This document shows, piece after piece, positions 25,056 to 64,000 of a stretch of DNA of 64,000 nt (position 1 is its first letter; every line of letters begins with the position of its first letter). Source of the DNA: Xestospongia muta (Eukaryota; Porifera; Demospongiae; Haplosclerida; Petrosiidae); assembly GCA_963693285.1 (NCBI GenBank), contig OY848920.1, positions 9,732,182 through 9,796,181 of the forward strand. Reading direction: 5' to 3'. The position numbers were made by a program, and so were the translations under genes. The notes beneath the pieces are model-generated. The model was not told the origin of the DNA. It saw only the letters and a program-made list of their open reading frames with translations, and did not search any database.

Positions 25056-25189
25056 TAATACTGTTAAATATTGTATGTGGAGCAAAGGAACTATAGCATT
25101 AAAGACAATTACAACCTGAACATCACAACTTGTACAGTAGCTACTTGACCTTCGAACTTTAGATGACTACTTGCTTGTTTTCCTTTTAA

Positions 25190-27550: not shown

Positions 27551-28479
27551 ACAATCTATTACCATATATTTATTAACATTATAATTACCATTACTATTAT
27601 AATTATCGTTACTATTACCATTAGTACTTTCATTACTATTACACTTACTTTTACTGTAATCAATTACAATTACAACTACATTTCTACAATTATAATTAAC
27701 AATATAATGATTATAGACACGTCATTGACATCAACATTACATTATAAATTACTATCAATTAAAATTATCAATGACCATTACATTTAGTGTTAATAATACA
27801 TCAACTACCACTATATAATAACTTATTAGGATTAAAATTTAATGACCTGCCTTCTTTTCCTCTGAATTTTCTTTAACTTTAAAGAGAACACAATTTATAC
27901 TAGATCCATTATTGACAACAGCAATTACCTAATATGTCAACTTTTTATGCTAGCTTAGCTATGGGCTAATGGCTGAGGTACAGTATCATCATAGCACAAC
28001 TTGACAGTACAGAAACAGTTATTAGTTCAAATGGGTCCCTATTGACACTACATTTAGTCATCATATTTTGAGCACAGCTACAGGAGAAAGCTTACTTTAC
28101 TTTCTAGAAAACACACACACCATGTGATCTACATGTGTTACATGATTAATTGACTGTTATTAGTACATGAAATTAAGTGAGAATCAATTAATCAATTGAG
28201 AATTAATATAATAAAAAATTATTATCTACTTACATCTGTGATCAGCTGTAGAGCTATGATACAATCGCAACTTCATTTTTTCACGTTAGTTGCAAATTGA
28301 TTATGTTAAATTTTTTTTTACTATAATCAAATTTTATTTTCGATTTATATAAATTATAATAATATTCAATCGAATGTTAACAAAATTATAGTTACTTGTC
28401 ACATGTCCTGCACATGATCAACACACACAGAAGTTAACAATACATGTACAACACTACATGTATATATATACCTATTACA
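27551..28479. other. Noncoding spacer between the satellite and CAMSAP 3' end
   Basis: Degenerate ATTAC-rich tail to about 27790, then AT-rich unique sequence. No supportable gene is seen. Confidence 0.5.
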
Positions 28480-39009: not shown

Positions 39010-42000
39010 TTACACGAACTCGAGTCTGTCTTTAATAACTTGATAACTGTCTAACTTCTTACAATACTCTTTATGTTGACTTGATAAATATAGTTCCCTA
39101 ATTGTAGTATTTTTAGTTAGTGATGTGCATATTGTCTTGATATCATCATTGTTCAGTGAAGTATTGTGGAGACGTAGTTCGGTCAGTGATGTAGTAGTTT
39201 GTATTAGATCTGCTATTGTACTGGTACTAACTGAAGTGATCTGATGATTACAACTGATGCTCAACATAGTCAATGTTTGGTTTTTAGTAAGTCCTTGACA
39301 GATATATCGGACTCCATTATCAGTGATGTTACAGTAGGGGAGACGTAGTACTTCTAGAGTTGTATTAATTGCTAACATAGTAGATAAGCGAGTCATATCT
39401 TCATCTGTAATACCAGTAACATTAAACAACCATAACAGCACAAGTGTTTTGTTATTGAAGAGACTATCACTGACTTGTTTGATACCACCAGTAAGTGAAG
39501 AGGAGTACAGCATTAGTATCTTTATTGTTTTATTAGTTTTTAGTATCTCTGATAATATCGATATACACTTGCTGTCCAATGAAGTGTCCCATATCTCAAG
39601 CCTCCACACTGTACACTTATTAAGATTGTTTATAATAACTGCAGTACTTTCAGGAGATGATGAGGAGAGACGAATGCTCCATTCTTTTCCTGTTTGTTGT
39701 TCTTTTATTAATTTACTTATAACATCTTCACTTTGTGCTACACTTGGTCTATTGAGTCTAACAATATTGTCATCATGTTTCCACTGAACGCTTCCAGTGT
39801 CTCCTATTATAAAACAGAGTTAGTATATAGTATAGTACACACATAGTAATATATACTATAACACACTACAATACATAGACAACACAGTGAAGAAGAAAGG
39901 AAGCCATTACCGTTTACTGACTATGGTTACTATGGCAATGATTTACAGGAGTTTACAGGAGGCGTGGTTTACTGTTAAATTTGAGACTTGTGTATGTTCT
40001 ACAGAGAAATTACACTCTTTACTACATAATAGTTTAAGATATTCATATATATATATATATATCAACTAGTCTGGCAAGACTAGCCCTTCTGTTTAGAGAG
40101 GAATTATATGGTAGTCTATTGAACCTGTTTCTAACAAACCACATTGTTTTTATAGTTGATTGTAGGATTTGCAAAATGAATAATTCTTTAGACATTTCCT
40201 GTTTGAATATGGTCAGTTCTCATTACATTTAAGTCAATAATAAATATAAAGGCTAGCTTATGTTTAATGGAGTCCTGGAGTCTAATATATACAAGGATTT
40301 ATATCAGGAAATTATTATAAGAGAGCAACTTGTTCTGTAATAATAATGGATGGGACTGAAGATATGTTAACATATTGTGACACTTGAAGTAACGAGATGG
40401 AACTTGATAAATTAAATTAATCAAAGAACTAGTTAAAGTACTGACTATTATCTAATAGTAGAACAAGCTACTACTATTACTACTACTAGTATTAGGGACA
40501 TTGACTTTATGCCTTGAGTTAACCATTTTCTAGTCTCAAGTATCGTAATACATACATATAATACTATGTGATATACAATGGACACTGTCTTGTGTTACTA
40601 CCTGTAGTTTCACTGATAAGTGATGTCTCTTCCTGACTGGATGGTGTTTGGGTCTTCTCAACTCCTTGATTAGGTACTGGTTTATTAGTCTTTGGTATAA
40701 ACGCTAGATTTGTAACAATGTCATATAATGAGAAGTGACTAATACCAGTTACCTTTTAAGCTCTGCATTAATGCTTCAAACTGTTTGTTTCTCTCTCTTA
40801 ATCGTAATGTCAATGATGTTACTCCTTCTTGCTGTGTTTCCAACTTTTTTTGTCTCTCTGAAGACGCTGACAATAACTCTTCCTTAATAACTAAATAATT
40901 ATTAAATATAATTATGTATTGACAAATCAGTGACACAGACTATGTTATATATATAATATAGTTTGTGTTAGACTCTGCCCTTAGTTTGTCTGACTCCACC
41001 CACTTGTGGTCAGATATACCAATGTACATACTTAGCTATAGTTAGATGACAACAAATTACTTCTGACAGGGATCAGTTGGAAATGAGTGATGGGTGGGGC
41101 TAGATTTATACACAAATTATACTGTTTGTTTGTACATGTATTGTTATGTAACTGTTACCACATCATAATATATAATAAAATGTAAAGAGATAATAATGTT
41201 ATTAGACTAGAATCCACAATCTTTCTTCTCTACATTTAGTAGTGATATAGAATATTACAAGTAACTACATGTTCCTAATACTGGAATATCAATGTTATCA
41301 TGATATCATTTTGTCTTTCCTTTCTTTATTAAGTTATTCATTTTAATCAGTTACACTTTATAATATTATTGTGTCAGTACAAATCACAATAAATCATTGA
41401 TGTAAATAGTTTTGTCTATAATGTTCCTTTTTACATACTCTAGTATTTTTAGATGCCTATTTTTAAAAATTGTAATGTTATTAGAACTAGTTAGCTATTA
41501 AAGTTCAATTGTGAGTTTGTTTCCATAATATCTAATATTCATTACTTCATTGTTATTTCTAGATCTTATCCTAAACCACTAATGTACATGTGACAACCAA
41601 TGAGCCACTATAATATAATATAACTGTCATGAGCCACTATTTCTAGCACTGTCATTATGGATGTGACTGATTATTCTATTAAGGTTCTAGTTAGCTTGAT
41701 TCCCTGTCTTATAGTTTCTGACAAACTTCAGTGTATGTCTGTGATATTAACATTAATTATAACTGAGATAATTATCTCAATTATAATATTGTTTACATTT
41801 ATTAATGATAACTGGTTACTAGTACATACCTCTTTTGTTTGACTCTTTATCTTTATCATCATTAGAATCCTTTAATACATCATATGATACTGGAGACTCT
41901 ATTCAAATTTAGATATATCATAATAACATCTTAAATATATTAATAATCATATTATTAAATATTATTCATTTTTGTGGTTTGAGTATATGAATATAATTAA

Positions 42001-45000
42001 TAGACATCAGTGATAACCAGGATGGTAATAACAGTACACTGGTGAGTAAAATCATACCAAATACTTCAAATGATCATTCTATTATTATAATAGTACTACT
42101 ACTGAGTACTAATGTTTACTACAAACCAGTAGTTATTAATGTGGTATAAGTGATCTAACCTTTTCAAGTATGTCATCACATGTGGTTTAAGTTGTCAAAA
42201 CATTGTACAATACTTTAATACTTGTTAATATCAATGTTACTTCTATCTGTACAACAACCCTATATGTTCAATGTTCAGTTAACACATCCTTCTATTAAAC
42301 ACCTATGCTCACTATTAACACACTATCTATGATCACTTGGTATCATATCATTATCATATACTCTACATATTATACTAACACTGAAGAGTATTAACTTAAT
42401 ATATACTAAATTATAATTATAATATAACCTACTTGGATGAGGTAAGGAACTCTCATCTTTATCATCAGCTGTACCCTTTAACTGATCTTTCAAATCTGAT
42501 ATAAATGAAGGCTCTATATCAGTAGTTATATCATTTCTATTACTACCTGTAGTTTCATTGATGAATGGTGTGGGTTCTTGTCGACTAGAGTTTGTAGAGG
42601 TTTCCTCTGGTTCTTGATCTTCCTTCTCTACATTTAGTAGTGATATAGAATACTACGAGTAACTACATGTTCCTAATACTGGAATATCAATATTATCATG
42701 ATATCATTTTGTCTTTCCTTTCTTTATTAAGTTATTCATTTTAATCAGTTACACTTTATAATATTATTGTGTCAGTACAAATCACAATAAATCATTGATG
42801 TAAATAGTTTTGTCTATAATGTTCCTTTTTTATATACTCTAGTATTTTTAGACTAGCTAGGACACAGTTCATGAAAAGACAAATTTGGAATCACAAAAGA
42901 AATCAAACAAATACAGTAAAGAACATGGAAGAAGACTATTATTGAATAATGATATCTGTAATATCAATGATTTTGTCTTTTATAATTGTTTTTAACTCCT
43001 CCCTATATACCACTAATTTTCTTTATCAACAGTTAAGTCTGACTCCACCCATGTACAGATGAAATATACATATAGTGACTTAGGAGGAAATGAAGGTGGA
43101 AGGCAATGGTGTACATACACTTTTAACAGTTTATTAACATTAATAAAAGGGTGTGGCTAGATTTTTGCTTTGGACCACAAAATGCTTTAAAACATTTCTA
43201 AATCAATTTTGATGTTGATCTAATACCTATTGATTGTCATTAAAAGAAAAGTTAACTATGTCAATAAGTGAAGTCCAGCCACACCTACTTCCAAAAGTTG
43301 TTGCAATGTTATTAGAACTAGTTAGCTATTAAAGTTCAATTTTGTGGGTTTGTTTCCAGAATATCTAATATTTATTACTTTAATGTTATTTCTAGATCTC
43401 ATCCTAAACCCTAAGTGGTAGTCTCATAAGCCACACCCCTATCCTGTATGATTGAATGATGGATGAGAAAGGATTGGGAAATTATTATAAGAGAGGAACT
43501 TTTTTCGTAATAATGATGGGTGGGACTGAATTATTTGTTAACATATTGTGACACTTGAAGCAACAAGATGGAACTTGGTAAACTAAATTAATCAAAGAAC
43601 TAGTTAAAGTACTGACTATTATCTAATAGTAGAACAAGCTACTACTACTACTATATATATCTACTTACATCATTTTACTCTATTGGGACAAAAGCTAATA
43701 AATTTAAACCACTAATGTACATATGACAACCAATGAACCACTACTGCAACTGTCATGATGGATGTGAGATGATTATTCTTTTAAGGTTCTAGTTAACTTG
43801 ATTGCCTGTCTTACAACTTCTCAAAACTTCAGTGTATGTCTGTGACATTAACATTAATTATAACTGAGGTGATTTTCTCAATTATAATATTGTTAACATT
43901 TATTAATGATAACTGGTTACTAGTACATACCTCTTTTGTTTGACTGTTTATCTTTATCATCATTAGGATCCTTTAATACATCATCTGATACTGGAGACTC
44001 TATTCAAATTTAGATATATCATAATAACATCTTAAATATTAATAATCATAATTATTAAATATTATTCATTTTTTGGTTTGAGTATATTAATATAATTAAT
44101 AGATATCAGTGATAACCAGGATGGTAATAACAGTACACTGGTGAGTAAAATCATACCAAATACTTCAAATGATCATTCTATTATTATAATAGTACTACTA
44201 CTGAGTACTAATGTTTACTACAAACCAGTAGTTATTAATGTGGTATAAGTGATCCAGCCTTTTCAAGTATGTCATCACATGTGGTTTAAGTTGTCAAAAC
44301 ATTGTACAATACTTTAACACTTGTTAATATCAATGTTACTTCTATCTTCTATCTGTACAACAACACTTTATGTTCAATGTTCAGTTAACATTTCCTTCTA
44401 TTGAACACCTATGCTCACTATTAACACACTATCTATGATCACTTGATATCATATCATTATCATATACTCTACATATTATACTAACACTGAAGAGTATTAA
44501 CTTAATATATACTAAGTTATAATTATAATATAACCTACTTGGATGAGGTAAGGAACTCTCATCTTTATCATCAGCTGCACCCTTTAAATGATCTTTCAAC
44601 TCTGATATAAATGAAGGTTCTATATCAGTAGTTATATCATTATTATTACTACCTGTAGTTTCACTGGTAAATGGTGTGGGTTCTTGTCGACTAGAGTTTG
44701 TAGAGGTTTCCTCTGGTTCTTGGTCTTTCTTCTCTACATTTAGTAGTGATATAGAATACTACAAGTAACTACATGTTCCTAATACTGGAATATCAATGCT
44801 ATCATCATTTTAATCAGTTACACTTTATAATATTATTGTGTCAGTACAAATCACAATAAATCATTGATGTAAATAGTTTTGTCTATAATGTTCCTTTTTA
44901 GATACTCTAGTATTTTTAGACTAGCTAGGACACAGTTTGTGAAAAGACAAATTTGGAATCACAAAAGAAATCAAGCAAATACAATAAATAACATAAAAGA

Positions 45001-48000
45001 AGACTATTATTGAATAATGATATCTGTAATATCAATGACTTTGTCTTTTATAATTGTTTTTAACTCCTCCCTATATGTCACTAACTTTCTTTATCAACAG
45101 TTAAGTCTGACTTCACCCATGTACAGATGACATACATACAGTGACTTAACTGATCTTTCAACTCTGATACAAATGAAGGTTCTATATCAGTAGTTATATT
45201 ATTATTATTACTATCTAAACTTAATTTAGCATAATTTTAAACAGACCTCCCGAGTAAACAATATAGTTTTAGCCCCTCCCACTTATAAGAGGTAATATTA
45301 CCATTGACTAGCAGTTTAATAATGACATATATAACTTACTAATGGTTTCTGATGATCTTTTAACAGTTAGTGCAATTTTGTTTTCTCCTTGTTTAACAAT
45401 AGTGACAGCATTATTATGCGGCATACCTTCAGTTGAGTAACCATTAATTTCTAATAATATATCACCATCCTATAATAATAATATTATTATAAACCACACC
45501 CTCTACTAATTATAGATATATGCCCCTTACTCTTAGTCCAGCTCTGTCTGCAGCTCCACCCTTTATTATATCTGTAACTTTTATAGTAGTCTTAGACTTT
45601 GTTCCTCCAATAATAGAAAATCTAAACTTATCATAATCTTTAGAAAACTCTATATGATGTATTTCCTCTATATTGGAATAGCCACGCCCTAGTTCAGGAT
45701 AAAGAGAAAGTTGGTTATAGGATATTATAACATGTTCATTATCTCAGTGGGTAGAACAACTCAATAAATATATTAGTATAACAATAATTTTAAATTAATA
45801 CAATTTAATTATAATATTAGTAGTCTGAGTTAGTCTGATAATGAATATGTTATCTTTATACCATATAACAGGTTTTTTCAAGGGCAGCATATTTCGGAAT
45901 TTAGGACAAATCCTACACAGTTAAACCATAGATTATTAATACTATGTAACGTAGTATTAATAATAAATCTAAACTCACTTGTGTCACATGGATCAATACA
46001 AACATGGCGTTACTAGAGTATTTCAAGAAATCTAGCTTTTTGCCTAATCCTAATGGACCCCTATCAGAACAAATGCCATCTTATAGTAACAAGTTTGTGA
46101 AATTTTCATTTGTGAATGCAAATGTTAGCTTCACTCATGAAATATACTGTCCTCGAAAAAACGCTATATTTTAACAATGTATATATATATTATACGTTAT
46201 AGTTTATAAATAATTTTAGTTGACTCCGGCCATTTGTGAGTGTAATATAAGAAATTCATCATGATGTGGTCAAAATTAAAGCTCAGCCCTATTATCATCT
46301 TCCAGTCTCAGGTATCTCAATACATATATACAATTTTTACAGTGCTATGTGATATACAATGGACACTGTCTTGTGTTACTACCTGTTGTTTCAGTGATAA
46401 GTGATGTCTCTTCTTGACTGGACTGTGTTAGGCTCTCCTGAAGTCCTTGATCAGTTACTGGTTTACTAGTCTCTGGTATGAATGCTAGATCTAGTAACAA
46501 TGTCATATAATGAAAAGTGACTAATACCAGTTACCTTTTAATCTCTGCCTTAATGCCTCAAACTGTTTGTTTCTCTCTCTTAATCGTAATATCAATGATG
46601 TTATTACTTCCTGTAGTGTCTCCAACTCTTTTTGTCTCTCTGCAGACACTGACAGTAACTCTTCTTTAATAACTAAATAATTATTTATTATAATTATGTA
46701 TTGACAAATCAGTAACACAGACTATGTTAATGATAGCTATTGTATTAATAATACCTTCCTTCCATTTTAAAAGAGATGTCAAATCTTTGATTGTTTTTTC
46801 TTTCATTTGTTTTCTTTCTACATAGAAACATTAAATTTTAAATCAGATATACCATATAATAGACAGCTATTAAATAAACAGTGATTATTGACTACATGGA
46901 CAAATACCTTCACTTTGTTGGAAAACAGATGATTTTTGTAAAGTCATCTTTTTACTGATGGTTTGTCGTAGTTCCAGTCTACTTCTTAACTCCTTCGTGT
47001 TCTCTTCTACAATAGGTCTAACCTCCTATATATCAATAAACAACACATGTAGTAACTGTTGTCTAATACTACTCATATCTTACCTTGTCTCTTTGACGTT
47101 TATCATAAATAGTGTGGTAGCCTATCGTTAACTTGATCACACCCAACTGCTTCAATGATTCAAGATTCTCCTTTGCTGTCATCAACAAAAGATCAATTAA
47201 ACTTTGTGGAGCATAGCAGGTAACAATGATGGAGTTGCCTTCATTTACTGCTCTAACTTGTACTTGCTTTGCCATACCTTTGAATGCTTTTGACAACAAT
47301 CCTCTGATGTCAATGAGAGTATATTTGTCAGCCTCCCACTCCAGAACAAACACAATAGTCTCACAGGTAAGTTGATGAGAAGATGAAGAGATTATGAAAC
47401 TTTGATTACAACATACATCAGCTTTGATCTTCTCACAAAATTTATCGACTGCTGTGTTGTAGTTTGTGATGTGTTCTTTAGCTACTGTAATGTCATATTG
47501 ATCAACAATTTCCTCCAAACAGCAGATGTTAATAATAGTACATTTATCTTGTACAAGATCCATTACATCATCAAGTGATTCAGCTGTTGCTAACTGAGGT
47601 CTCAGATCTCGGAAACATCTACGAAGGTATGTTTTAAGGTCTTGCAGTGAAGGGATGCCCTTTGCAATAAGAGGAGCAACTGTGTAAAAAAGTTTACCAA
47701 ATTTCATTTTTATTTGATCAAAATCATGTTGAAAAATGGGTTGGAGGTTAACTTCGGAGGGAAAAGTTTGATCTATAAATAAAGCAATATAACTTGCAGA
47801 TATATATGCAGTACTTACCATATTCTTTGAGTATATCTTTAGCAATAGGTACTGTTTGTTCAGATTTTAATAAGACACTAGCGAACAGTTTTAGTTTGCC
47901 AGGATCTTCATACACTGTAGTACACAGTGCTCTCAATGGACCATCTCCTAGTACACCTCCCAATCTATTAACTTCATCTAATGTCTCCTTAGATATCACT

Positions 48001-48527
48001 CTCTCTGTATATAACATCTGAACAATCTCCACAGGAAGAGTAACTGGTAAGATCTTATCAGAGTGTTTCTGTAGCATTTGACAAGCTGGAGTAGATAGCT
48101 TATCTGTTATAAAGTAAAGAGACAATGTATTATATAATGAAGATTACAAGTTCTCACTAAATTCTTTTATTTGTTCAACAGTGAAAATTTCTTCCATTGT
48201 CTTGAGAGCATCAGCTAATGTGTCCCATGTAGGACCTCCACTCTCAGTCACCTTGTCAGCTTTACTCAACCACAGAGTTAAACACTCTTGAAGACAGCTC
48301 TCTGGATCATCTCGGTACTTGGTTCTAATGCTTGACAGAGTAGGTTGTAACAGACCCAGTTGTAGACCAAGAGGAGACCAGCGATGACTTGGGAAATAGC
48401 CTTGTTTCAAAGCTTTAACAATATCTTTCAGATTACTAACATCTACAATAACAATGTAAAGAAGAGAAGCAACTTAAAGTGAATAGAATAAAGTTAACTC
48501 ACTCAGTTCACTGTGATTCACTGCCAT
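39010..48527 (-). CDS. Copy A: Death domain - CARD - unknown domain X - coiled coil - PDZ - acidic linkers - coiled coil - LRR protein, 18 exons, about 1227 aa
   Basis: Exons (minus strand order) are 48503-48527, 48158-48442 (DD), 47819-48103 (CARD), 47084-47772 (X), 46908-47025, 46755-46817, 46535-46672, 46383-46484, 45531-45742 and 45340-45469 (PDZ), 45140-45214, 44539-44733, 43931-43999, 42433-42627, 41830-41898, 40753-40890, 40602-40703 and 39010-39803 (LRR). They total 3684 nt in one open frame. The DD shows W..LGLQLGL, CL.LWL and PTW..LADAL. The CARD shows LP.EIVQMLY.ERVISKET. The PDZ shows IKGGAADRAGL and DGDILLEINGYSTEGM. Six or so RNase-inhibitor-type LRRs end the protein. DD, CARD and LRR suggest innate-immune or cell-death signalling, but no NACHT/NB-ARC ATPase is present. 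Linker and coiled-coil exons are internally duplicated. Splicing of the 45140-45214 exon and the join to the LRR exon are the least certain steps. Confidence 0.72.
41200..44900. repeat. Internal segmental duplication within copy A (linker-exon cassette)
   Basis: The stretch with exons 44539-44733 and 43931-43999 is repeated with its introns at 42433-42627 and 41830-41898. Exon lengths are identical (195 and 69 nt). Flanking text such as CTTCTCTACATTTAGTAGTG recurs at 41224, 42630 and 44730. The coiled-coil exons of 138 and 102 nt also occur twice (46535/46383 and 40753/40602). Confidence 0.85.
45340..45742 (-). other. PDZ domain exons of copy A
   Basis: Two exons (45531-45742 and 45340-45469, phase 0 between them) encode a PDZ fold: IEFSKDYDKFRFSIIGG, then IKVTDIIKGGAADRAGLR, then DGDILLEING. 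The carboxylate-binding loop (GLGF in classical PDZ) reads FRFSI here, against FGFTT in copy B and FGFIT in copy C. Peptide specificity may therefore differ. Confidence 0.75.
47084..47772 (-). other. Exon 4 of copy A: unrecognised conserved domain X (about 230 aa)
   Basis: The exon encodes a mostly helical N-terminal half (LKTYLRRCFRDLRPQL, then DKCTIINICCLEEIV, then TAVDKFCEKIK). The C-terminal half looks alpha/beta (TCETIVFVLEW, then EGNSIIVTCYAPQSLIDLLL, then GYHTIYD). I do not recognise the family. It follows CARD and precedes coiled-coil exons. The corresponding exon of copy B is 56754-57439. Confidence 0.65.
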
Positions 48528-48930
48528 AACCAAAGGCTTGTGAGTTTTTATAGTACAAGGGTGGGGGTGCATACCAGGAATATGAATATTGTATAATTAT
48601 TAAATACTGTTACTATAAATAGCATACGACATTTAGTGATATAAATAACATATTTCATTTCCTTATTTGGTAAAACAAACCAGTATTTTATATTCTATGT
48701 ACTTTGTAATAGACGCTTTCTATAAACAAGAAATGTAAAATTTTAGCCTCAACTATATTTGTTTATATTATTATATTTATTTAATTATAAATTATTTGTG
48801 TTCTATTTAATAACTTGGGTGGTCCTTGGTGTAACTTGCCTATGATGACATCATGTGACATCATAACTAAGAACCACCCAATAAGGCAATAACTTATTAA
48901 TAACTCAGGTTGTCTCAATACTGTGGAGTA
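48528..48930. promoter_or_regulatory. Short divergent 5' region of copy A
   Basis: About 400 bp lie between the copy A ATG (48527, minus) and an 89-codon ORF on plus (48931). It is AT-rich, with no clear TATA box at the expected distance. It contains the 71-bp insertion at 48817-48887. Confidence 0.4.
48817..48887. mobile_element. 71-bp inserted element with 8-bp target-site duplication AATAACTT
   Basis: AATAACTT at 48809-48816 is repeated at 48888-48895. The paralogous site in copy B (58477-58484) has one AATAACTT and no insert. The element is largely palindromic (GGGTGGTCCTTGG ... AAGAACCACCC with ATGATGACATCAT inside). An 8-bp duplication fits hAT-type transposition; classification is inferred. 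Confidence 0.7.
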
Positions 48931-49200
48931 ATGAAGACATTAACAATAAGTAATGAAAGGAGTAATGAACATAGTAAGTCAGTAGAATTACAAGGAAAAG
49001 AAATTAAAATATTAACTAGTCATTGTGTGGATACTGTAGTAGCTCATGATCTTAATATATCAAGGAAGTCAGTAGTTAAAAGACTGCCACGCCCACTTTA
49101 TTGGGTTTTTAAAAATAACTTTATGAAGTTGATGTTAAATGATGTTCGTGTTAACAAGAAAAGTATTGAGGTCATTATAGCAGCTGGTGGAACAAGATAA
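48931..49200 (+). CDS. Small uncharacterised ORF, 89 aa, divergent from copy A
   Basis: ATG at 48931 (MKTLTISNERSNEHSKSVEL), ending IIAAGGTR at 49200. No domain is recognised; the composition is basic in the middle (SRKSVVKRLPRPLYW). The duplicate at 58518-58790 carries an in-frame TAA and an indel, so at least that copy is dead. It could be a single-exon gene, an exon of a larger transcript, or a fragment of an ancestral gene caught in the duplication. Confidence 0.35.
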   Translation: MKTLTISNERSNEHSKSVELQGKEIKILTSHCVDTVVAHDLNISRKSVVKRLPRPLYWVFKNNFMKLMLNDVRVNKKSIEVIIAAGGTR

Positions 49201-49675
49201 TATACAAGTTGGACATTCTATGGAGCTATCTTTTGTGAAGGGAACTTGACTACTTAATTTTACCAACAAACAGCTACCACTGTAAGTATATAAAAGAAAG
49301 GGTTTTAGTGAAGTCCAAAATTAATGAATAATGATATTATCATCTTGTTTGATGTTTTATTTTATAGACATCTCTCAATGACTACTGTTTATCACTCCAC
49401 TATCTTTTGTAATGTTATGGAACAAAAAATGATTACAATATGAGAAAAGATTACTAGTTAAACATGAGGTCCTCTCTCAAAGACAGCCCAATACAATAAT
49501 GGTAAGTACTTTATCATATAGACTTAATATTGTCATAATAACTGTATAGCTTTATGATATGTACTTGGAATTATGTAGGAAGGTAATTTTTAATGTAATA
49601 TATTATCTCATTGTAGTCACCATAAGATAACTAACAGATATAGGAGATGTGATATATAGCAATATTACTATATAC

Positions 49676-49756
49676 CTGTATTGTAATGGAGGCTAGTTCA
49701 ACTGCTTTCTCTTCTGATGCAGGATAGTAGTCACTTAATATGTATATGATGTGGTC
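49676..49756 (-). pseudogene. Isolated FERM-like exon (27 codons) at the duplication boundary
   Basis: With good splice signals on both sides (TTATAG acceptor, GTATAT donor) it encodes DHIIYILSDYYP.SEEKAVELAS. This resembles the start of the FERM central lobe (L..yP.SEEeA.eLA.lqlQ). No neighbouring FERM exons are visible. It is repeated at 59266-59346. Probably an exon carried along by the segmental duplication. Confidence 0.4.
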
Positions 49757-49873
49757 CTATAATTGTGTAAAAGTTTACAGTGGGAGTGGCTTAGATGAAC
49801 TGATAAGAATGAATTGACAAGGAATTAGATGTCATTGTATTAACTATATCAAGTAATATTGTATGTGTTATAG

Positions 49874-51100
<1,227 letters not shown>

Positions 51101-52463
51101 GTCACCTGACCTTTGACACTCTAGTTAATACTGATATAAATTTGTATTTTGTGCAATGATTTATTAATAATTATTATTAATTAACTTTAAAATAGTTAAT
51201 TAAATATAATATATGTCATGTAGTGAGAGGTATTAGAGTAAAGTACCAGCTGCTGGTAATAACAATCAACTGATACAGGTACATCCCCCAGGAATAGTTA
51301 CACTATTTCTTGTCTTCCACTCAACTACATACTCCACCTACATTAGTAAAACCTCACAGAATGAAGTATATCCTCAAGAACACTAGAATATGAAGAGTGC
51401 AAAAGAGATGAAGAAATTAGAATTAAAAAAACCTATTCATTAACATGTAATACAATCAATACCAGTGACCCTGTAGTCTAGTTAATAACATATAAGTGAA
51501 TATTTTTACAATAAATTATTTGTGGCTAAATAGTTTACAAGATTGGACCCCGCCCATTGACTTCACATAGTGCCTTTCTTCAAGGTTAAAATTCTCTTAC
51601 CACAAAATATTTACACATATATTATATAAATATAGAGACTAAAGAAGAAAGTGGTTCTTGGTGTAACTTGACTATGATGACATCATAATGAAATGAGACA
51701 TAGTGATATCATCATATTGATGACATCACCTAAACCCTAAACCAAACCTAACATTATTAACTCTATGACACATAGTGATGTCATCATAAGGCAAGTTGTT
51801 ACATCATCAGTCAAATGACACCCCTCAAAGAAGAGAAGAGAGGATACAATAATTACCTTTGATCCTTTCAATTTATTTACTTCATATTATAGTTTTCATC
51901 CTCTCACTTCTTATATGTTGTATCCAGTTAATGGTTTATATCAAAGTTTGTTTCTCTCTTGTACCCAACAGAATCTTCTTTATAATAGTGATATGTACAT
52001 TGTTCATAGAATATAGAATATGTTGAGATCTCAGGAATATCTACTGAATTGTAACATGACAAAATAAAATCAGTTTTTTTGATTAATTGAATTCACTTTC
52101 CTGCGATCTCAGCTGCCTTCTCTGAAAGGCTGTCATGATGCTGACTGGTGTAGCAAGACCACTAACCCACTATTGAGTTACTTAAAGCACGTTTGTCATC
52201 CTTTAAAGTATTGTGAACTCATCAGAGGGATAGAATGAGGCCACATCCACAAAAATCTTGTAGGTGCAAAAGAGAGAGAGAGTAAAAGTGCGACGTTAGA
52301 GAAGCAAGTGTCAAGTAAATGCAAAACTGCTCTATTTTTATTGTCTACTAGTTTTGTTAGAGAATAAATTGTTAATAAAAGAAGATAAAGTCAATAGAAA
52401 TTTAAAGAGAAAATAAAAGTGAGTGAGAAGACAGATTAAGAATAAACAACAAACTACTTACTA
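51101..52463. repeat. Second copy of the convergent spacer
   Basis: Closely matches 37704-39009 throughout, apart from a short extra stretch near 51220-51285 (AGTGAGAGGTATTAGAGTAA). No gene is seen. Confidence 0.8.
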
Positions 52464-55400
52464 TTACACGAACTCAAGTCTGTCTTTAATAACTTGATAA
52501 CTGTCGAACTTCTTACAATACTTGTAATGTTGACTTGATAAGTATAGTTCCCTTATTGTAGTATTTTTAGTTAGTGATGTACATATTGTCTTGATATCAT
52601 CATTGTTCAGTGAAGTATTGTGGAGACGTAGTTCGGTCAGTGATGTAGTTGTTTGTATTAGATCTGCTATTGTACTGGTACTAACTGAAGTGATCTGAGG
52701 ATTACAACTGATGCTCAACATAGTCAATGTTTGGTTTTTAGTAAGTCCTTGACAGATATATCGGACTCCATTATCAGTGATGTTACAGTAGGGGAGACGT
52801 AGTACTTCTAAAGTTGTATTAGTTGCTAACATAGTAGATAAGTGAGTCATATCTTCATCTGTGATACCAGTAACATTATACAACAATAACAGTTCAAGTG
52901 TTTCATTATTACAGAGACTATCACTGACTTGTTTGATACCACCAGTAAGTGAAGAGGAGTACAGCATTAGTACCTTTATTGTTTTATTAGTTTTTAGTAT
53001 CTCTGATAATATCGATACACACTTGCTGTCCAATGAAGTGTTCCATATCTCAAGACTCCTCACTGTACACGTATTAAGATTGTTTATAATAACTGCAGTA
53101 CTTTCAGGAGATGATGAGGAAAGACGAATGCTCCATTCTTTTCCTGTTTGTTGTTCTTTTATTAATTTACTTATAACATCTTCACTTTGTACTACACTTG
53201 GTCTAGTGAGTCTAACAATATTGTCATCATTCCACTGAACACTTCCAGTGTCTCCTGTTATAAAACAGAGTTAGTATATAGTAAAGTACACACATAGTAA
53301 TATATACTATAACACACTACAATACAAGACAACACACTGAAGAAGAAAGGAAGCCATTACTGTTTACTGACTATGGTTACTATGGCAATGATTTACAGGA
53401 GGCGTGGTTTACTGTTAAATTGGAGACCTTGTGTATGTTCTACAGAGAAATAATCCTCATATTAATGTTACACTCTTTACTACATAATAGTTTAAGGTAT
53501 TCATATATCAACTTAGTCTGGTGAGGCCAGCCTCTTTGCTTAGAGAGGAATTGTCTGGTAGTCTATTGGACTTGTTCCTGGCAAACCACATTGTTTTTAT
53601 AGTTGAGTGTGAGCTTTGATCTAATACAGGATTTGCACAACTAATCATTCTTTAGACATTTCCTGTTTGAATATGGTCAGTTTGTGTTAGACTCCACACT
53701 TAGTTTGTCTGACTCCACCCACTTGTGGTCAGATATACCAATGTACATACTTAGCTATAGTTAGATGACAACAAATTACTTCTGACAGGGATCAGTTGGA
53801 AATGAGTGATGGGTGGGGCTAGATTTATACACAAATTATACTGTTTGTTTGTACATGTATTGTTATGTAACTGTTAACACATCATAATATATAATAAAAT
53901 GTAAAGAGATAATAATGTTATTAGACTAGAATCCACAATCTTTCTTCTCTACATTTAGTAGTGATATGGAATACTACAAGTAACTACATGTTCCTAATAC
54001 TGGAATATCAATGTTATCATGATATCATTTTGTCTTTCCTTTCTTTATTAAGTTATTTGTTTTAATCAGTTACACTTTATAATATTATTGTGTCAGTACA
54101 AATCACAATAAATCATTGATGTAAATAGTTTTGTCTATAATGTTCCTTTTTTAGATACTCTAGTATTTTTAGACTAGCTAGGACACAGTTCGTGAAAAGA
54201 CAAATTTGGAATCACAAAAGAAATCAAGCAAATACAGTAAAGAACATAGAAGAAGACTATTATTATATTGAATAATGATATCTGTAATATCAATGATTTT
54301 GTCTTTTATAATTGTTTTTAACTCCTCCCTATATGTCACTAACTTTCTTTATCAACAGTTAAGTCTGACTCCACCCATGTACAGATGACATATACATACA
54401 GTGACTTAGGAGGAAGTGAAGGTGGAAGGCAATGATGTACAAATATTTCTAACAGTTTATTAATATTAATAAAAGGGTGTGGCTAGATTTTTGCTTTGGA
54501 CCACAAGATACTTAAAATATTTCTAAATCGATTTTGATGTTGATCTAACAGGTATTGGTTGTCATTAAAATGGAAAGTAAACTATGTCAACAAGTGAGGT
54601 CCAGTCACACCTACCTTTAAAAGTTGTTGTAATGTTATTAGAACTAGTTAGCTAAATTTGTGGGTTTGTTTTCACTTGTTAAAATCTTACCAAATACTTC
54701 AAATGATCATTCTATTATTATAATAGTACTACTACTGAGTACTAATGTTTACTACAAACCAGTAGTTATTAATGTGGTATAAGTGATCCAGCCTTTTCAA
54801 GTATGTGATTACATGTGGTTTAAGTTATCAAAACATTGTACAATACTTTAATACTTATTAATATCAATGTTACTTTTATCTTCTATCTGTACAACAACAC
54901 TTTATATTCAATGTTCAGTTAACATATCCTTCTATTGAACACCTATGCTCACTATTAACACATTATCTATGATCACTTGATATCATATCATTATCATATA
55001 CTCTACATATTATACTAACACTGAAGAGTATTAACTTAATATATACTAAGTTATAATTATAATATAACCTACTTGGATGAGGTAGGGAACTCTTGTCTTT
55101 ATCATCAGCTGATCCCTTTAACTGATCTTTCAACTCTGATATAAATGAAGGTTCTATATCAGTAGTTATATCAGTATTATTACTACCTATGTTAAATTTA
55201 GTATAATTTTAAACAGATCTCGTAAGTAAACAATATAGTCTTAGCCCCTCCCACTTATAAGAGATAATATTAACACTGACCAACAGTTTAATAATAACAC
55301 ATATAACTTACTAATGGTTTCTGATGATCTTTTAATAGTTAGTGCAATTTTGTTTCCTCCTTGTTTAATAATAGCAACAGCATCAATATGTAACATACCT

Positions 55401-58210
55401 TCAGTTGAGTAACTATTAATTTCTAATAATATATCACCAACCTATAATAATAATATTATAAACCACACCCTCTACTAATTATACATATATGTCCCTTACT
55501 TTAAGTCCAGCTCTGTCTGCAGCTCCACCCTTTATTATATACGTAACTCTTATAGTAGTGCTAGACTCTATTCCTCCACGAGTAGTAAATCCAAACATAT
55601 CATGATGATCTTTAGTAAACTCTATATGATGTATTTCCTCTATATTGGGATAGCCACGTCCTATTTTAAGATAAAGAGAAAGTTGGTTACAGGATATTAT
55701 AACATGTTCATTATCTCAGTGGGTGGAGCAACTCAATAAATATATTAGTATATTAGAGAATTTAAAATTAATACAATTTTGTGGTTTAGTATTATAATAT
55801 CAGTAGCTATGAGTTAGTCTAATGTGATAATGTTGTCTTTTACTACCTTTATATAGTTTATCAATAATGTTTAATTGACCCCGCCCATTTGTGAGTGTGA
55901 TACTACACACTGTAAGATGTGAAATTCATTGTGGGTGTGGTCAAATTATGGCTCAGCCCTATTATCATCTTCCAGTCTTAGGTATCTCAATACATACATA
56001 TAATTTTCACAGTACTATGTGATATATAATGGACACTGTCTTGTGTTACTACCTATAGTTTCAGTGATAAGTGATGTCTCTTCCTGACTGGACAGTGTTT
56101 GGGTCTTCTCAAGTCCTTGATCAGTTACTGGTTTACTAGTCTTTGATATGAATGCTAGATCTAGTAACAATGTCATATAATGAGAAGTGACTAATACTAG
56201 TTACCTTTTAAGCTCTGCCTTAATGCTTCAAATTGTTTGTTTCTCTCTCTTAATCGTAACATCAATGATGTTATTACTTCCTGCAGTGTCTCCAACTCTT
56301 GTTGTCTTTCTCCAGACACTGACAGTAACTCTTCCTTAATAACTAAATAATTATTAATTATAATTATGAATTGACAAATCAGTAACACAGACTATGTTAG
56401 TGATAGCTATTGTATTAATAATACCTTCCTTCCATTTCAAAAGTGATGTCAAATCTTTGATTGTTTTTTCTTTCATTTGTTTTTTTTCTACATAGAAACA
56501 TTGAATTTTAAATCAGATATACCATATAATAGACAGCTATTAAATAAACAGTGATTATTGACTACATGGACAAATACCTTCACTTTGTTGGACAACAGAT
56601 GATATTTGTAAAGTCATCTTTTTACTGATGGTTTGTCGTAGTTTCAGTTTACTTCTCAACTCCTTTGTGTTCTCTTCTACAATAGGTCTAACCTCCTATA
56701 TATCAATAAACAACACATGTAGTAACTGTTGTCTAATACTACTCATCTCTTACCTTGTCTCTTTGACATTTGTCATAAATAGTGTGGTAGCCGAGAATGA
56801 GTTTTATCAATCCCATCTCTTTTAAAATGTCAACATTTTCCTTTGCTGTTATTAGTAATATATCCATCATATATTGTGGAGCATAGCAGGTGACAATGAT
56901 AGAGTTGCCTTCTTTTATAGCTCTAACTTGGACTGACTTTGCCATATCTTTGAATGCTTTTGATAGCAAATCTTTAATGTGACTGAGAGTATATTCATCT
57001 GTTTTCCATTCCAGTATAAACTCTATAGTCTCACAGGTGAGATGGTGTGATGAAGTGACCTTGAAATTCTGGTTAATACATATGTCGGTTTTCACCTTTT
57101 CACAAAACTTATCTACAGCTGTCTTGAATGTTGTGATGTGTGTCTTAGCTTCTGTGATATTGTAGTGATCAACAATAGCCTCTAAACAGCAGATGTTAAT
57201 GATGGTACATTTATCTTCTACCAGCTCCATGACATCATCAAATGATTCAGCTGATGATAGTTGAGGTTTTAGCTCTCGGAAACATCTTCGAAGATATGTT
57301 TTGAGCTCCTTCAATGAAGGAATAACTTTAGCAATGAGAGGTACGACTGTTTCAATAAGATTTCCAAAGGCTACTTTCATCTGATCAAAATCATATTGAT
57401 ATGTTCTGTGAAGACTGACTTGAGAAGGGAATGTTTGGTCTATAACAGAGTCAGTGATTTATATTATACATTATAAAACATTTACATACCAAACTCCTTG
57501 AGTATATCTTGACCAATCAATACTGTTTGTTCAGACTTCATCAAGACACTAGCGAACATTTTTAGTTTGCCAGGATCTTCATACACTGTAGTACACAGTG
57601 CTCTCAATGGACCATCTCCTAGTACACCTCCCAATCTATTGACTTCATCTAATGTCTCCTTAGAGATCACTCTCTCTGTATATAACATCTGAACAATCTC
57701 CACAGGAAGAGTAACTGGTAAAATCTTATCAGAGTGTTTCTGTAGCATTTGACAAGCTGGAGTAGATAGCTCGTCTGTTAAAAGGTAAAGAGACAATGTA
57801 TTATATAATGAAAATTATAAATTCTCACTAAATTCTTTTATTTGTTCAGCAGTGAAAATTTCTTCCATTGTTTTGAGAGCATTAGCTAATGAGTCCCATG
57901 TAGGACCTCCATTCTCAGTCACCTTGTCAGCTTTACTCAACCACAGAGTTAAACACTCCTGAAGACAGCTCTCTGGATCATCTCGGTACTTGGTTCTAAT
58001 ACTTGACAGAGTAGGTTGTAATAGACCCAGTTGTAGACCAAGAGGAGACCAGCGATGACTTGGGAAATAACCTTGTTTCAAAGCTTTAACAATATCTTTC
58101 AGATTACTAACATCTACAATAACAATGTAAAGAAGAGAAGCAACTTAAAGTGAATAAAATAAAAGTTTATATTACTTTAACTCACTCAGTTCAGTTTGAT
58201 TTGCTGCCAT
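52464..58210 (-). CDS. Copy B: Death domain - CARD - unknown domain X - coiled coil - PDZ - linker - LRR protein, 12 exons, about 983 aa
   Basis: Exons (minus strand order) are 58186-58210, 57829-58113 (DD), 57490-57774 (CARD), 56754-57439 (X), 56578-56695, 56425-56487, 56205-56342, 56053-56154, 55500-55714 and 55312-55441 (PDZ), 55073-55186 and 52464-53254 (LRR). They total 2952 nt in one open frame. All splice phases match those of copy A. It has a single linker exon (SELKDQLKGSADDKDKSSL) and lacks the duplicated linker and second coiled-coil exons of copy A, so the LRRs follow the PDZ closely. PDZ reads FGFTTRGG, then YIIKGGAADRAGLK, then VGDILLEIN. Role inferred as for copy A: a death-fold/LRR sensor or adaptor without an ATPase domain. 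A remnant of the copy A linker exon with a stop lies near 53925-53955. Confidence 0.72.
53255..55072. other. Last intron of copy B, with intron remnants of the copy A linker cassette
   Basis: It matches intron sequence around 41040-41440, 42840-43320 and 44130-44530. The exon-like start AGAAGAAAGA near 53943 runs into a stop, so the cassette is deleted here. No working exon is seen. Confidence 0.65.
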
Positions 58211-59459
58211 GTCTAAGGGCTTGGGAGTGTCTAGTACAAGTAAAGGATAAGGCTTCATACCAGAAATATGAATAGTACTTGCAACTATTAATACTGATAC
58301 TATAAATAGCATAGAGTCATTTATAGTGATATAAATAACATATTTCCTTATTTGGTAAACAAATAGCAATTGTACTTTTTGGTAGACGTTTTCTATAAAT
58401 GATAAATGTAAAGTTTTAGGCTCAACTATATTTGTCTATATTATTATATTTATTTAACTATATTTGTGTTCTATTTAATAACTTATTAATAACTCAGGTT
58501 GTCTCAATAATATGGAGTAATGAAGACACTAACAATAAGTAATGAAAGGAGTAATGAACATAGTAAGTCAGTAGAATTACAAGGAAAAGAGATTAAAATA
58601 TTAACTAGTCATTGTGTGGATACTGTAGTAGCTCATGATCTTAATATATAAAGGAAGTCAGTAGTTAAAAGACTGTCACGCCCACTTTATTGGTTTTTTA
58701 AAAAATAACTTTATGAAGTTGATGTTAAATGATGTTCATGTTAACAAGAAAAGTATTGAAGTCATTATAACAGCTGGTGGAACAAGATGATATACAAGTT
58801 GGACATTTTATGGAGCTACCTTTTGTGAAGGGAACTTGACCACTTAATTTTACCAACAAACAGCTACCACTGTAAGTATATAAAAGAAAGGGTTTTAGTG
58901 AAGTCCAAAATTAATGAATAATGATATTATCATCTTGTTTGATGTTTTATTTTATAGACATCTCTCAATGACTACTGTTTATCACTCCACTATCTTTTGT
59001 AACGTTATGGAACAAAAAACGATTACAATATGAGAAAAGATTACTAGTTAAACATGAGCTTCTCTCTCAAAGACAGCCTAATACAATAATGGTAAGTACT
59101 ATATCACATAGACTTAATATTGTCATAATGACTGTATAGTGTTATGATATGTACTTGGAATTATGTAGGAAGGTAATTTTTAATGTAATATATTATCTCA
59201 TTATAGTCACCATAAGATAACTAACAGATATAGGAGATCTGATATATAGCAATATTACTATATACCTGTATTGTAATGGAGGCTAGTTCAACTGCTTTCT
59301 CTTCTGATGCAAGATAGTAGCCACTTAATATGTATATGATGTGGTCCTATAATTGATGTAAAAGTTTACAGTAGGAGTGGCTTAGATGAACTGATAAGAA
59401 TGAATTGACAAGGAATTAGATGTCATTGTATTAACAATATCAAGTAATATGTGTTATAG
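58211..59459. other. Duplicated spacer with a decayed 89-codon ORF copy and a FERM-like exon copy
   Basis: 58518-58790 is the disrupted counterpart of 48931-49200 (TAA after HDLNI, plus an indel in the PLYW region). 59266-59346 is the FERM-like exon copy, with D to G and P to L changes. The 71-bp element is absent. Confidence 0.7.
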
Positions 59460-60662: not shown

Positions 60663-63600
60663 TTACCAGAACACAAGTCTGTCTTTAATAACTTGATAAC
60701 TGTCTAACTTCTTACAATACTCTTTATGTTCTCTTGATAAGTATAGTTTCCTTATTGTAGTATTTTTAGTTAGTGATGTGCATATTGTCTTGATATCATC
60801 ATTGTTAAGTGAAGTATAGTCGAGATATAGTGTTGTCAGTGATGTAGTAGTTTGTATTAGATCTGCTATTGTACTGGTACTAACTGAAGTGATCTGACGA
60901 TTACGACTGATGTCCAACTTAGTCAATGTTTGGTTTTTAGTAAGTCCTTCACAGATATATCGGACTCCATTATCAGTGATGTTACAGTAGGAGAGACATA
61001 GTTCTTTTAAAGTTGTATTAGTTGCTAATATAGTAGATAAGCGAGTCATATCTTCATCTGTGATACCAATAACATTATCCAACACTAACTGTTCAAGTGT
61101 TCTATTATTAAAGAGACTATCACTGACTTGTTTAATACCACGAGTAAGTGAAGAGGACTGTAGCCGCAGTGTCTTTATTGTTTTATTAGTTTTTAGTATC
61201 TCTGATAATATCAATACACACTTACTGTTCAATAAAGTGCTGTGTATATCAAGTCTCCACACTGTACACTTATTAAGATTGTTTATAATAACTGCAGTAC
61301 TTTCAAGAGAAGATGATGAAAGACTAATATTCCATTCTTTTCCTGTTTGTTGTTCTTTTATTAATTTACTTATAACATCTTCACTTTCTACTACACTTGG
61401 TCTATCGAGCAATACAATATTGTCATCATCTCTCCACTGAACACTTCCAGTGTCTCCTATTATAAAACAGAGTTAGTATATAGTATAGTACACACATAGT
61501 AATATATACTATAACACACTACAATACACAGACAACACACTGAAGAAGAAAGGAAGCCATTACTGTTTACTGACTATGGTTACTATAGCAACAATTTACA
61601 GAAGACGTGGTTTACTGTTAAATTTGAGACCTTGTATGTTTTATAGAGTAACAATCCTATCATATTAGTGTATTATACTATATGATAGACTTCAGGTATT
61701 CACATATCAACTTAAGTCTGGTGAGGCCAGCCCTATTGGACTTTTGCCTGACAAACCACATTGTTTTTATAGTTGAGTGTGACTATAAACTGCTTTGATT
61801 TAATACAAGATCTATAACAAAAGACATTTCCTCTTTGAATGTGGTTTATTCACCTTGTTCTCATTACATTTGAGTCAATGATAAAATATAACATTTTTTA
61901 ATGGAGTCCTGGAGTCTAATACAAGGATTTATCTTACCAGTGATTAATATAAACACGTTTGTACTTTATTGTAACATTTTATATATAATCCATGAAGTAG
62001 ACTATGTTCTTGTTTATTATTTCTACTTTTCCTTTTTATGAGCCTAAGTCTGTCTGACTCCACCCACTTGTGGTCAGATATACTAATGTACATACTTAGC
62101 TATAGTTAGATGACAACAAATTACTTCTGACAGGGATCAGTTAGAAATGAGTGATGGGTGGGGCTAGATTTATACACAAATTATACTGTTTGTTTACAAA
62201 TACAGTAAAGAACATAGAAGAAGACTATTATTGAATAATGATATCTGTAATGTCAATGATTTTGTCTTTTATAATTGTTTTTAACTCCTCCCTATATGTC
62301 ACTAACTTTCTTTATCAACAGTTAAGTCTGACTCCACCCATGTACAGATGACATATACATACAGTGACTTAGGAGGAAGTGAAGGTGGAAGGCAATGATA
62401 TTATAACAGTTTATTAATATTAATAAAAGGGTGTGGCTAGATTTTTACTTTGGACCACAAGATACTTAAAAATATTTCTAAATCAATTTTGATGTTGATC
62501 TAACATCTATTGGTTGTCATTAAAATGGAAAGTAAACTATGTCAATAAGTGAGGTCCAGCCATACCTACCTTTAAAAGTTGTTGTAATGTTATTAGAACT
62601 AGTTAGCTCAATTTGTGGGTTTGTTTTCACTTGTTAATATCAATGTTACTTCTATCTGTACAACAACACTTTATGTTCAATGTTCAGTTAACATTCCTTC
62701 TATTGAACATCTATACTCACTATTAACACACTATCTTATTACCAATACTGATAATAATACTATTAATTTGTTATTAACAACTATATAGATTGATTTTATA
62801 CAATCACTTGATATCATATCATTATCATATACTCTACATATTATACTAACACTGAAGAGTATTAACTTAATATATACTAAGTTATAATTATAATATAACC
62901 TACTTGGATGAGGTAAGGAACTCTTGTCTTTATCACTAGCTAAACCCTTTAACTGATCTTTCAACTCTGATATAAATGAAGGCTTTATATCAGTAGTTAC
63001 ACTCAAAATAGCATTTTGTCATTTCAACCATTGTCTTTGTTACCATAATTTCATCAATATGACATAAGCCCAATATTGAGTTACCACAAAGCCATAACTG
63101 GTCTAACTCAATATGTATAAAGTCAACCAGAAGCCAAAAAGTACTCTTTGTAGTTTATGTCTAGTAATTGAAGCCATGAGCAAGAGATGGATACTATTTC
63201 AACTTAACTAATTGGATTAGGAACAGTTGAAACAGAATCTGCTTATAGCTTCAATTGAAGCCATGATTCAATTACTATAGCAAAGTGGATGTAAAAGAAA
63301 TGTGGTTGTAGATGCAACTAGTTAGCTTTATGCACATTAAGATACACTATAGTTGGCCTTGTAGCAACTTAGAATGGGTTTACATTGTATTGATGAAACT
63401 GTTGTAACGAAGACCTCGGTTAAAATGACTAAATGCTTTTTTCAGTGTAAATCATTATTATTACTACCTAAACTAAATTTAGCATAATTTTAAACAGATC
63501 TCGTAAGTAAACAACATAGTCTTAGCTCCTCCCATTTATAAGAGGTAATATTAACACTGACCAACAGTTTAATAATAACATATATAACTTACTAATGGTT

Positions 63601-64000
63601 TCTGATGATCTTCTAACAGTTAGAGAAATTTTGTTTCCTCCTTGCTTAGTAATAGTGACAGCATCAGTATGTGACATACCTTCAGTTGAGTAACCATTAA
63701 TTTCTAATAATACATCACCAACCTATAATAATAATATTATAAACCACACCCTCTACTAATTATAGATATATGTCCCTTACTTTAAGTCCAGCTCTGTCTG
63801 CAGCTCCACCCTTTATTATATCTGTAACTTTTATAGTAGTACTAGACTCTATTCCTCCATGAGTAATAAATCCAAACTTATCATGATCTTTGGTAAATTC
63901 TATATGATGTATTTCCTCTATATTAGGATAGCCATGTCCTAGTTTAGGATAAAGAGGAAGTTGGTTATAGGACATTAGAATGTGTTCATTAGTGAAATTT
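60663..64000 (-). pseudogene. Copy C (partial in window): PDZ - interrupted linker - LRR, disrupted by a TIR element
   Basis: Visible exons (minus) are PDZ 63781 to about 63990 at the window edge and 63593-63722, linker exon halves 63448-63482 and 62904-62999, and LRR 60663-61456 (794 nt, open). The linker exon is split by the 448-bp element at 63000-63447. Reading into it gives a stop after three codons (DLH, stop). The exon is phase 1 on both sides, so skipping it would restore the frame directly from PDZ to LRR. The copy may thus be a pseudogene or an alternatively spliced gene. DD, CARD and X exons would lie beyond the window. PDZ reads FGFITHGG, then IIKGGAADRAGLK. Confidence 0.65.
63000..63447. 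mobile_element. 448-bp nonautonomous TIR element (MITE-like), TA target duplication
   Basis: The ends are inverted repeats of about 45 bp: left CACTCAAAATAGCATTTTGT, right (reverse complement) CACTGAAAAAAGCATTTAGT. They continue as TCATTT.AACC...GTCTT.GTTAC. TA flanks both sides (62998-62999 and 63448-63449). No coding capacity. TA duplication suggests Tc1/mariner-type mobilisation (inference). A second, left-truncated copy is at 21239-21538. Confidence 0.8.

Follow-up and report, generated by a model that had tools for sequence, protein, structure and literature searches.

In the sponge Amphimedon, Kaur et al. (2021, PMC8195603) describe, in the part of the text available, 357 proteins of the NCOA6 clade of TRADD-N, which carry one to three Death-superfamily domains, a TRADD-N domain, and a variable C-terminus including SH3 with leucine-rich repeats (LRR), or PDZ. 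In zebrafish, the NLR-B30.2 genes form a large clustered family whose recognition module has undergone domain-specific gene conversion and positive selection, according to the accessible portion of PMC4852459. Excerpts of PMC11378527 report positive selection at four concave LRR positions, together with LRR exon shuffling, in brown algal ROCO. The locus considered here lies in a 64,000-nucleotide stretch of the Xestospongia muta genome (the window: assembly GCA_963693285.1, 158 Mb in 28 contigs, contig OY848920.1, C4:9732182-9796181). Its minus strand bears three tandem copies of a gene, A (39010-48572), B (52464-58258), and C (60669 to past the window end), in which a Death or Death-like domain (DD), a CARD, a domain called X, coiled-coil exons (cc1 to cc4), a PDZ domain, and an LRR exon are predicted to be joined. 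These genes probably represent a PDZ and LRR version of the sponge Death/TRADD-N receptor-adaptor expansion, with recognition by the LRR, clustering, and death-fold signalling; a probability of about 0.62 is given to this reading.

Gene B, assembled manually from its exons and verified with a script, consists of 12 exons with 11/11 introns of the GT...AG type. Its 983-aa frame runs from the ATG at 58258 to the stop at 52464, and a second in-frame ATG at 58210, where the range of an earlier note on this DNA ended, leads to 967 aa. Exon 1 (58186-58258, donor GTGAGT) is followed by the exons for Death (57829-58113), CARD (57490-57774), and X (56754-57439), the last being a putative helical bundle with an RRM-like domain of TRADD-N type. 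The coiled-coil/linker exons cc1 to cc4 (56578-56695, 56425-56487, 56205-56342, and 56053-56160; 56053-56695 overall) were judged from the sequence alone. Two PDZ exons (55500-55660 and 55312-55441), a spacer exon (55073-55186), and the LRR exon (52464-53254), with eight ribonuclease-inhibitor-type repeats and an N-terminal hairpin, complete the gene. In the spliced protein, Death (PF00531, E 4.4e-5), PDZ (PF00595, E 1.1e-14), and LRR_6 (E 3.9e-6) exceed the curated Pfam cut-offs, and the LRR profile matches ribonuclease inhibitor at 8.2e-36. The earlier note had placed all these modules in a single open frame, and gene B bears this out. Splice phases were checked in genes A and B only; nine of the 11 gene B introns are phase 1, so that modules could be swapped in frame.

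The order CARD-X-cc1 to cc4-PDZ-LRR is kept in 7/8 PDZ-bearing genes examined as DNA (A, B, C, D, E, G, and H). The exception is gene K, which has the PDZ and no LRR within the 4.6 kb examined behind it.

The linkage of the LRR exon to X was followed across the genome by six-frame searches, which gave 146 LRR-exon matches, 150 places for X, and another 150 for a second class of X based on that of gene P. All 300 X places were used (290 once overlaps were merged), and the LRR, X, PDZ, and NACHT counts are lower bounds. For each listed LRR exon the closest X was sought over 10 kb: it is upstream on the same strand in 129/146 cases, downstream on the same strand in 13, on the opposite strand in 0, and absent in four. 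With strands randomised 300 times, upstream same-strand cases averaged 64.3 and never exceeded 85. Because the observed 129 stand against about 64 at random, the LRR exon is regarded as part of the X gene. The pattern is also found in LRR copies on contigs C2 and C12. Within 12 kb, the nearest same-strand upstream element of the listed LRR exons is X in 134/146, another LRR in seven, and none in five. The PDZ is rarer, with at least 15 genome matches; X lies just upstream in 14/15, and an LRR comes before the next X in 11/14. As judged from these matches, the PDZ appears to be an optional insert in X-LRR genes. NACHT has at least 98 matches elsewhere in the same genome and 0 in the window, the nearest listed on the same contig being more than 1 Mb off. 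Well over a hundred genes appear to join death-fold adaptor domains directly to LRR without a NACHT.

Tandem LRR exons, which number 7/146 by position, were seen in detail once, in the region L061 (C4:10186900-10194500), where one LRR exon (at C4:10190513) follows another (at 10194380) and the interval is free of DD, CARD, and X matches. This pair is possibly one of tandem alternative terminal exons, or an orphan. Tandem terminal LRR exons may add alternative splicing to the family.

The variability of the LRR was measured in 115 proteins, kept of the best 120 of 528 homologues. Entropy within the repeat peaks at x3, x5, x7, and x8 (means 2.08, 2.30, 2.28, and 1.64 bits), and no other position from x-2 to x19 has a mean above 0.84 bits, though single positions exceed it. 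When the 32 concave positions were compared with the rest, 0/20000 permutations were as extreme. Among the 32 LRR positions with the greatest variation, 21 (120 proteins) or 24 (76 closest) belong to the concave set; the variable sites 8, 12, 14, and 16 are located in the predicted N-terminal hairpin or at its ends. In 14 copies examined as DNA, the proportions of nonsynonymous (pN) and synonymous (pS) differences are 0.363 and 0.119 at concave codons, a ratio of 3.06 (bootstrap 1.93-5.80), as against 0.038 and 0.045, a ratio of 0.85 (0.56-1.37), at the other 230 LRR codons. Codon pairs one base apart comprise 1158 nonsynonymous and 57 synonymous differences at concave codons, and 1306 and 517 at the others. 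The higher concave pS is due to multi-base codons. Local hypermutation at concave codons was considered and rejected, as single-base synonymous differences are not raised there (57/2899 vs 517/20847 comparisons). All 14 copies are free of internal stops. The LRR family, with its hypervariable concave face and a nearly fixed remainder, looks like a germline-diversified, NACHT-free receptor repertoire. This hypervariable face, the most interesting feature of the genes, had escaped the earlier note.

The LRR exon also appears to behave as a cassette of about 0.95 kb, homogenised across paralogues whose X may be as little as about 44% identical. Among the 14 LRR exons, the flanking DNA differs by only 0.019 within 50 bp on either side, ahead of the acceptor or behind the stop. 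The figure is 0.027 between 50 and 100 bp upstream and about 0.14-0.18 past some 150-200 bp; the multiple alignment of 400 bp upstream gives 0.259. This flank conservation may partly reflect constraint on the flanks. Genes P and B share 44% identity in X and 35% in CARD, with 85% in LRR, and the mean synonymous divergence (dS) among PDZ genes is 0.64 for X (8 genes) vs 0.069 for LRR (7 genes). In the four-gamete test, 667/1275 informative site pairs within the LRR exon fail, with no clear distance dependence. The simplest account would be that the LRR exon, along with its short flanks, has been exchanged or converted repeatedly, while selection keeps changing the binding face. Among open-licence papers, no published report of concave-face diversification or cassette homogenisation in these sponge genes was found.

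The N-terminal half follows another regime. The ratio pN/pS is 0.34 for X (8 genes), 0.37 for CARD (8 genes), and 0.24 for DD (3 genes), and these substitution patterns show that the death-fold parts and X are under purifying selection. The window's own CARD exon has no Pfam match; PF00619 is matched at E ≤ 1 by 3/9 aligned family members, the best at 3.9e-4, and comparison of the CARD exon sequence with PDB retrieved no CARD structure. NCBIfam gave matches to the X, LRR, and CARD exons only far under its curated cut-offs, and Rfam gave 0 matches on the window. In the PDZ, the start of helix B is His in genes A, B, C, G, and H and Leu in D, E, and K. Class-I PDZ specificity goes with His at this position, and in view of the Leu of D, E, and K the PDZ is assigned no single specificity.

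Domain X had been called unrecognised in the earlier note. A helical bundle with an RRM-like domain fitting TRADD-N is moderately supported, and X is probably a domain of TRADD-N type. NACHT is neither among the Pfam families of 48 X sequences (25/29 families shown) nor in spliced gene B, and the idea of a NACHT within X was dropped. The turn between strands 2 and 3 of X is mostly G-N-S, with a Ser invariant in the 48-row alignment and a preceding residue that is mostly Asn, not tiny. The motif given for TRADD-N of the NCOA6 clade, in the available text of PMC8195603, is a tiny residue and Ser in this turn. Foldseek comparison of X with PDB gave 0 matches at E ≤ 0.001. A separate region, L062 (C4:8322300-8328900), holds a Death-like frame with DIELNPGP, a DD-like frame, X with cc1, a further DD-like frame, and a NACHT frame that spans at least 529 aa, the DD-like names being given by eye. 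DIELNPGP resembles a 2A ribosome-skipping peptide, and L062 is possibly a case of TRADD-N beside an NLR.

A working model can be proposed from these domains. The LRR horseshoe would bind a variable ligand, either microbial or from other individuals, while the coiled coil and the TRADD-N-type domain would provide oligomerisation and adaptor contacts. The PDZ, if present, would anchor the protein by binding a partner's C-terminal tail. Once clustered by ligand, the proteins would seed a death-fold signalling assembly through their Death domain and CARD, and this would take the place of the NACHT ATPase switch of NLRs. Selection on single positions of the concave face would create new specificities, which conversion or exchange of the LRR cassette would carry from gene to gene. 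A broader proposal, held tentatively and at a little under even odds, is that these genes form a second NACHT-free intracellular LRR arm, about the size of the NLR set and diversified like an antigen-receptor repertoire. A mobile cassette of about 0.95 kb would move among genes whose signalling halves have diverged deeply, with a nearly fixed scaffold and about 30 variable concave residues, and switching would be NTPase-free, through coiled-coil/TRADD-N clustering and death-fold nucleation. The comparison of size sets the 134/146 listed LRR exons behind X against the at least 98 NACHT matches, both lower bounds. If true, an early-branching animal would possess a large recognition repertoire without the NACHT switch thought to define such LRR sensors, its diversification would fall chiefly on the ligand-binding face, and a recognition exon would be tradable among signalling backbones. 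The genes would then be a testable candidate for sponge discrimination of microbes or other individuals.

A number of observations weigh against this receptor-adaptor reading. The joining of exons in all genes is a prediction from DNA. For 13/146 listed LRR exons the closer X is the downstream one, and the PDZ is optional, as the LRR occurs without it in genes P and Q. The concave set leaves out 11 (120 proteins) or eight (76 closest) of the 32 LRR positions that vary most, and little variation is seen at some of its members, such as x7 of repeat 8 and x8 of repeat 1. Taken over its full length, the LRR exon has a ratio of 1.25 (0.87-1.89) in seven PDZ genes and 1.50 (1.09-2.17) in 14 copies; these copies are a sample of 14/146 exons, and dN/dS, the ratio of nonsynonymous to synonymous divergence, is rough on recombining paralogues. 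Recurrent selected changes can imitate exchange in the four-gamete test. For the PDZ, pN/pS is 1.34 with an interval that spans 1 (0.83-2.38), and diversification of the PDZ groove was rejected on this account. As to X, PF13820 (NCOA6_TRADD-N) has no match in gene B or gene P and reaches only E 0.045, below cut-off, in gene A; a six-frame search of the genome with PF13820 was empty, but its positive controls gave no signal either. The structure model of X has a predicted template modelling score (pTM) of only 0.49, and in the structure comparison TRADD-N comes 39th in a field of tied ferredoxin-like folds.

Other explanations must be considered. It is conceivable, if unlikely, that the LRR face reads a polymorphic sponge molecule in allorecognition and kills fused cells, rather than sensing microbes. 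The selection pattern is silent on the ligand, and TRADD-N expansions are tied to sessile or aggregating marine animals in the consulted sections of Kaur et al. (PMC8195603). Repertoires also differ between the public proteins and the window: among 249 listed public relatives, which are the best-ranked only (120 of 404, 120 of 528, and 120 of 528), none exceeds 96% to X of A or B or to the LRR of A or C, and a single partial one, P0171, passes this level with 98% over 167 residues of the LRR of B. The last of the three homologue searches brought up no more distant relatives among its best 120 of 528. This scarcity of close matches, which also counts against the receptor-adaptor reading, may reflect repertoire turnover or another individual, or other species. 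On the other side, the sequence data give these genes no link to fusion or rejection, and the compared assemblies, seen through best-ranked matches only, may be of another individual or species. A structural or polarity scaffold like CARMA or LAP, in which paralogue turnover and relaxed constraint would account for the LRR diversity, is improbable. CARMA/CARD-MAGUK scaffolds have CARD, coiled coil, and PDZ in that order with an SH3-GUK C-terminus, so the sponge genes contain the CARMA core, and the closest solved relative of the PDZ is DLG4. However, the LRR framework varies little and x3, x5, x7, and x8 strongly, with a pN of 0.363 at concave codons vs 0.038 elsewhere, and such position-specific variation makes relaxed constraint unlikely.

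Decay of the family into mostly functionless tandem duplicates is very improbable: in-frame stops in some X matches and the duplicated spacer and cc stretches of gene A would fit it, but the low pN/pS of X, CARD, and DD and the intact LRR copies (14/14) do not. Hardly any credence is left for the LRR exon being a separate gene that adjoins DD-CARD-X-PDZ genes by chance, a case which the earlier note had allowed for and which is not borne out. A 1.8-kb intron separates the spacer and LRR exons of gene B, and the listed exons include the seven directly behind another LRR and the five whose 12 kb upstream contain neither X nor LRR on the same strand. Nevertheless, it was rejected on the genome-wide linkage to X (129/146, C2 and C12 copies included). 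Moreover, the gene B LRR exon begins at an AG acceptor and carries on the phase of the spacer exon, and no in-frame Met occurs in it before residue 96, which is in the third repeat; an upstream exon is therefore required.

The remaining copies, also on the minus strand, complete the description of the receptor-adaptor genes. Gene A comprises exon 1 (48503-48572), Death (48158-48442, Pfam and exon chain), CARD (47819-48103), X (47084-47772), cc1 to cc4 (46383-47025), a two-exon PDZ (45340-45688), two duplicated spacer exons (44539-44652 and 42433-42546, with a third, partial spacer match at about 45147-45212), second cc3- and cc4-like stretches before the LRR (40606-40888, approximate ends by tblastn), and the LRR exon (39010-39803, Pfam and exon chain). 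Its exon chains give 983 aa with one spacer exon or 1021 aa with two, open to the LRR stop, in place of the 1227 aa of the earlier note, a figure which perhaps counts the duplicated stretches between PDZ and LRR. Gene C had been overlooked there. Its LRR exon (60669-61454, Pfam scan and exon search) and PDZ exons (63781-63933 and 63594-63722, approximate ends; 63594-63933 together) are in the window, and its X, CARD, and DD-like exon are outside, in L024. In genes C and D (upstream regions L024 and L036), a different, DD-like exon precedes a CARD 84-87% identical to that of gene B, which suggests that the N-terminal death fold is swapped too; of the two, the gene C exon was scanned with Pfam and gave nothing above cut-off. 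Genes P and Q have the LRR and no PDZ among the listed PDZ matches. Elsewhere in the window, a 2519-aa minus-strand open frame (191-7747) contains IPT/TIG repeats (3.7e-76) and growth-factor-receptor cysteine-rich repeats (6.1e-27), with a transmembrane stretch and tail recognised by eye, and a long imperfect repeat array (25181-27302) shows strong strand asymmetry (GC skew -0.62 in 26001-28000).

Compared with known systems, the sponge genes share the CARD-coiled coil-PDZ order with CARMA, but add a Death and a probable TRADD-N-type domain, and their LRR replaces SH3-GUK; neither SH3 nor guanylate kinase has a Pfam match in the 983-aa gene B protein. In LAP proteins of the Scribble/Erbin type, the LRR is N-terminal to the PDZ, whereas the sponge LRR is C-terminal to it. 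The vertebrate VLR, which are assembled somatically, have LRRNT/LRRCT caps, and none is among the Pfam matches of the gene B protein. A C-terminal ribonuclease-inhibitor-type LRR is common to the animal NLRs (NLRC/NLRD/NLRP), which have a NACHT where the sponge genes have a probable TRADD-N-type domain, a coiled coil, and an optional PDZ. Zebrafish NLR-B30.2, as far as PMC4852459 could be consulted, recognises through B30.2 on a NACHT NLR core, the sponge genes putatively through LRR without NACHT. Brown algal ROCO, in the excerpts of PMC11378527, has single-repeat exons and a ROC-COR GTPase, as against one eight-repeat exon and no NTPase. The earlier note had proposed an immune or cell-death scaffold and knew of no described family; such a role is plausible for a NACHT-less gene with NLR-like ends, while the novelty does not hold, since the Amphimedon expansion is published. 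The available text on that expansion (PMC8195603) does not spell out the exact DD-CARD-TRADD-N-PDZ-LRR string, concave selection, or cassette homogenisation, and the LRR diversification pattern was not found in print. N-terminal death folds, a variable C-terminus, and hundreds of copies are common to both, and X, after the death folds, may correspond to the TRADD-N domain. Here the N-terminal Death-superfamily domains are Death above cut-off and CARD in 3/9 members, and the C-terminus is PDZ with LRR, LRR alone in P and Q, or PDZ without a nearby LRR in K. In its domain architecture, the Xestospongia family is a variant of the Death/TRADD-N kind published for Amphimedon.

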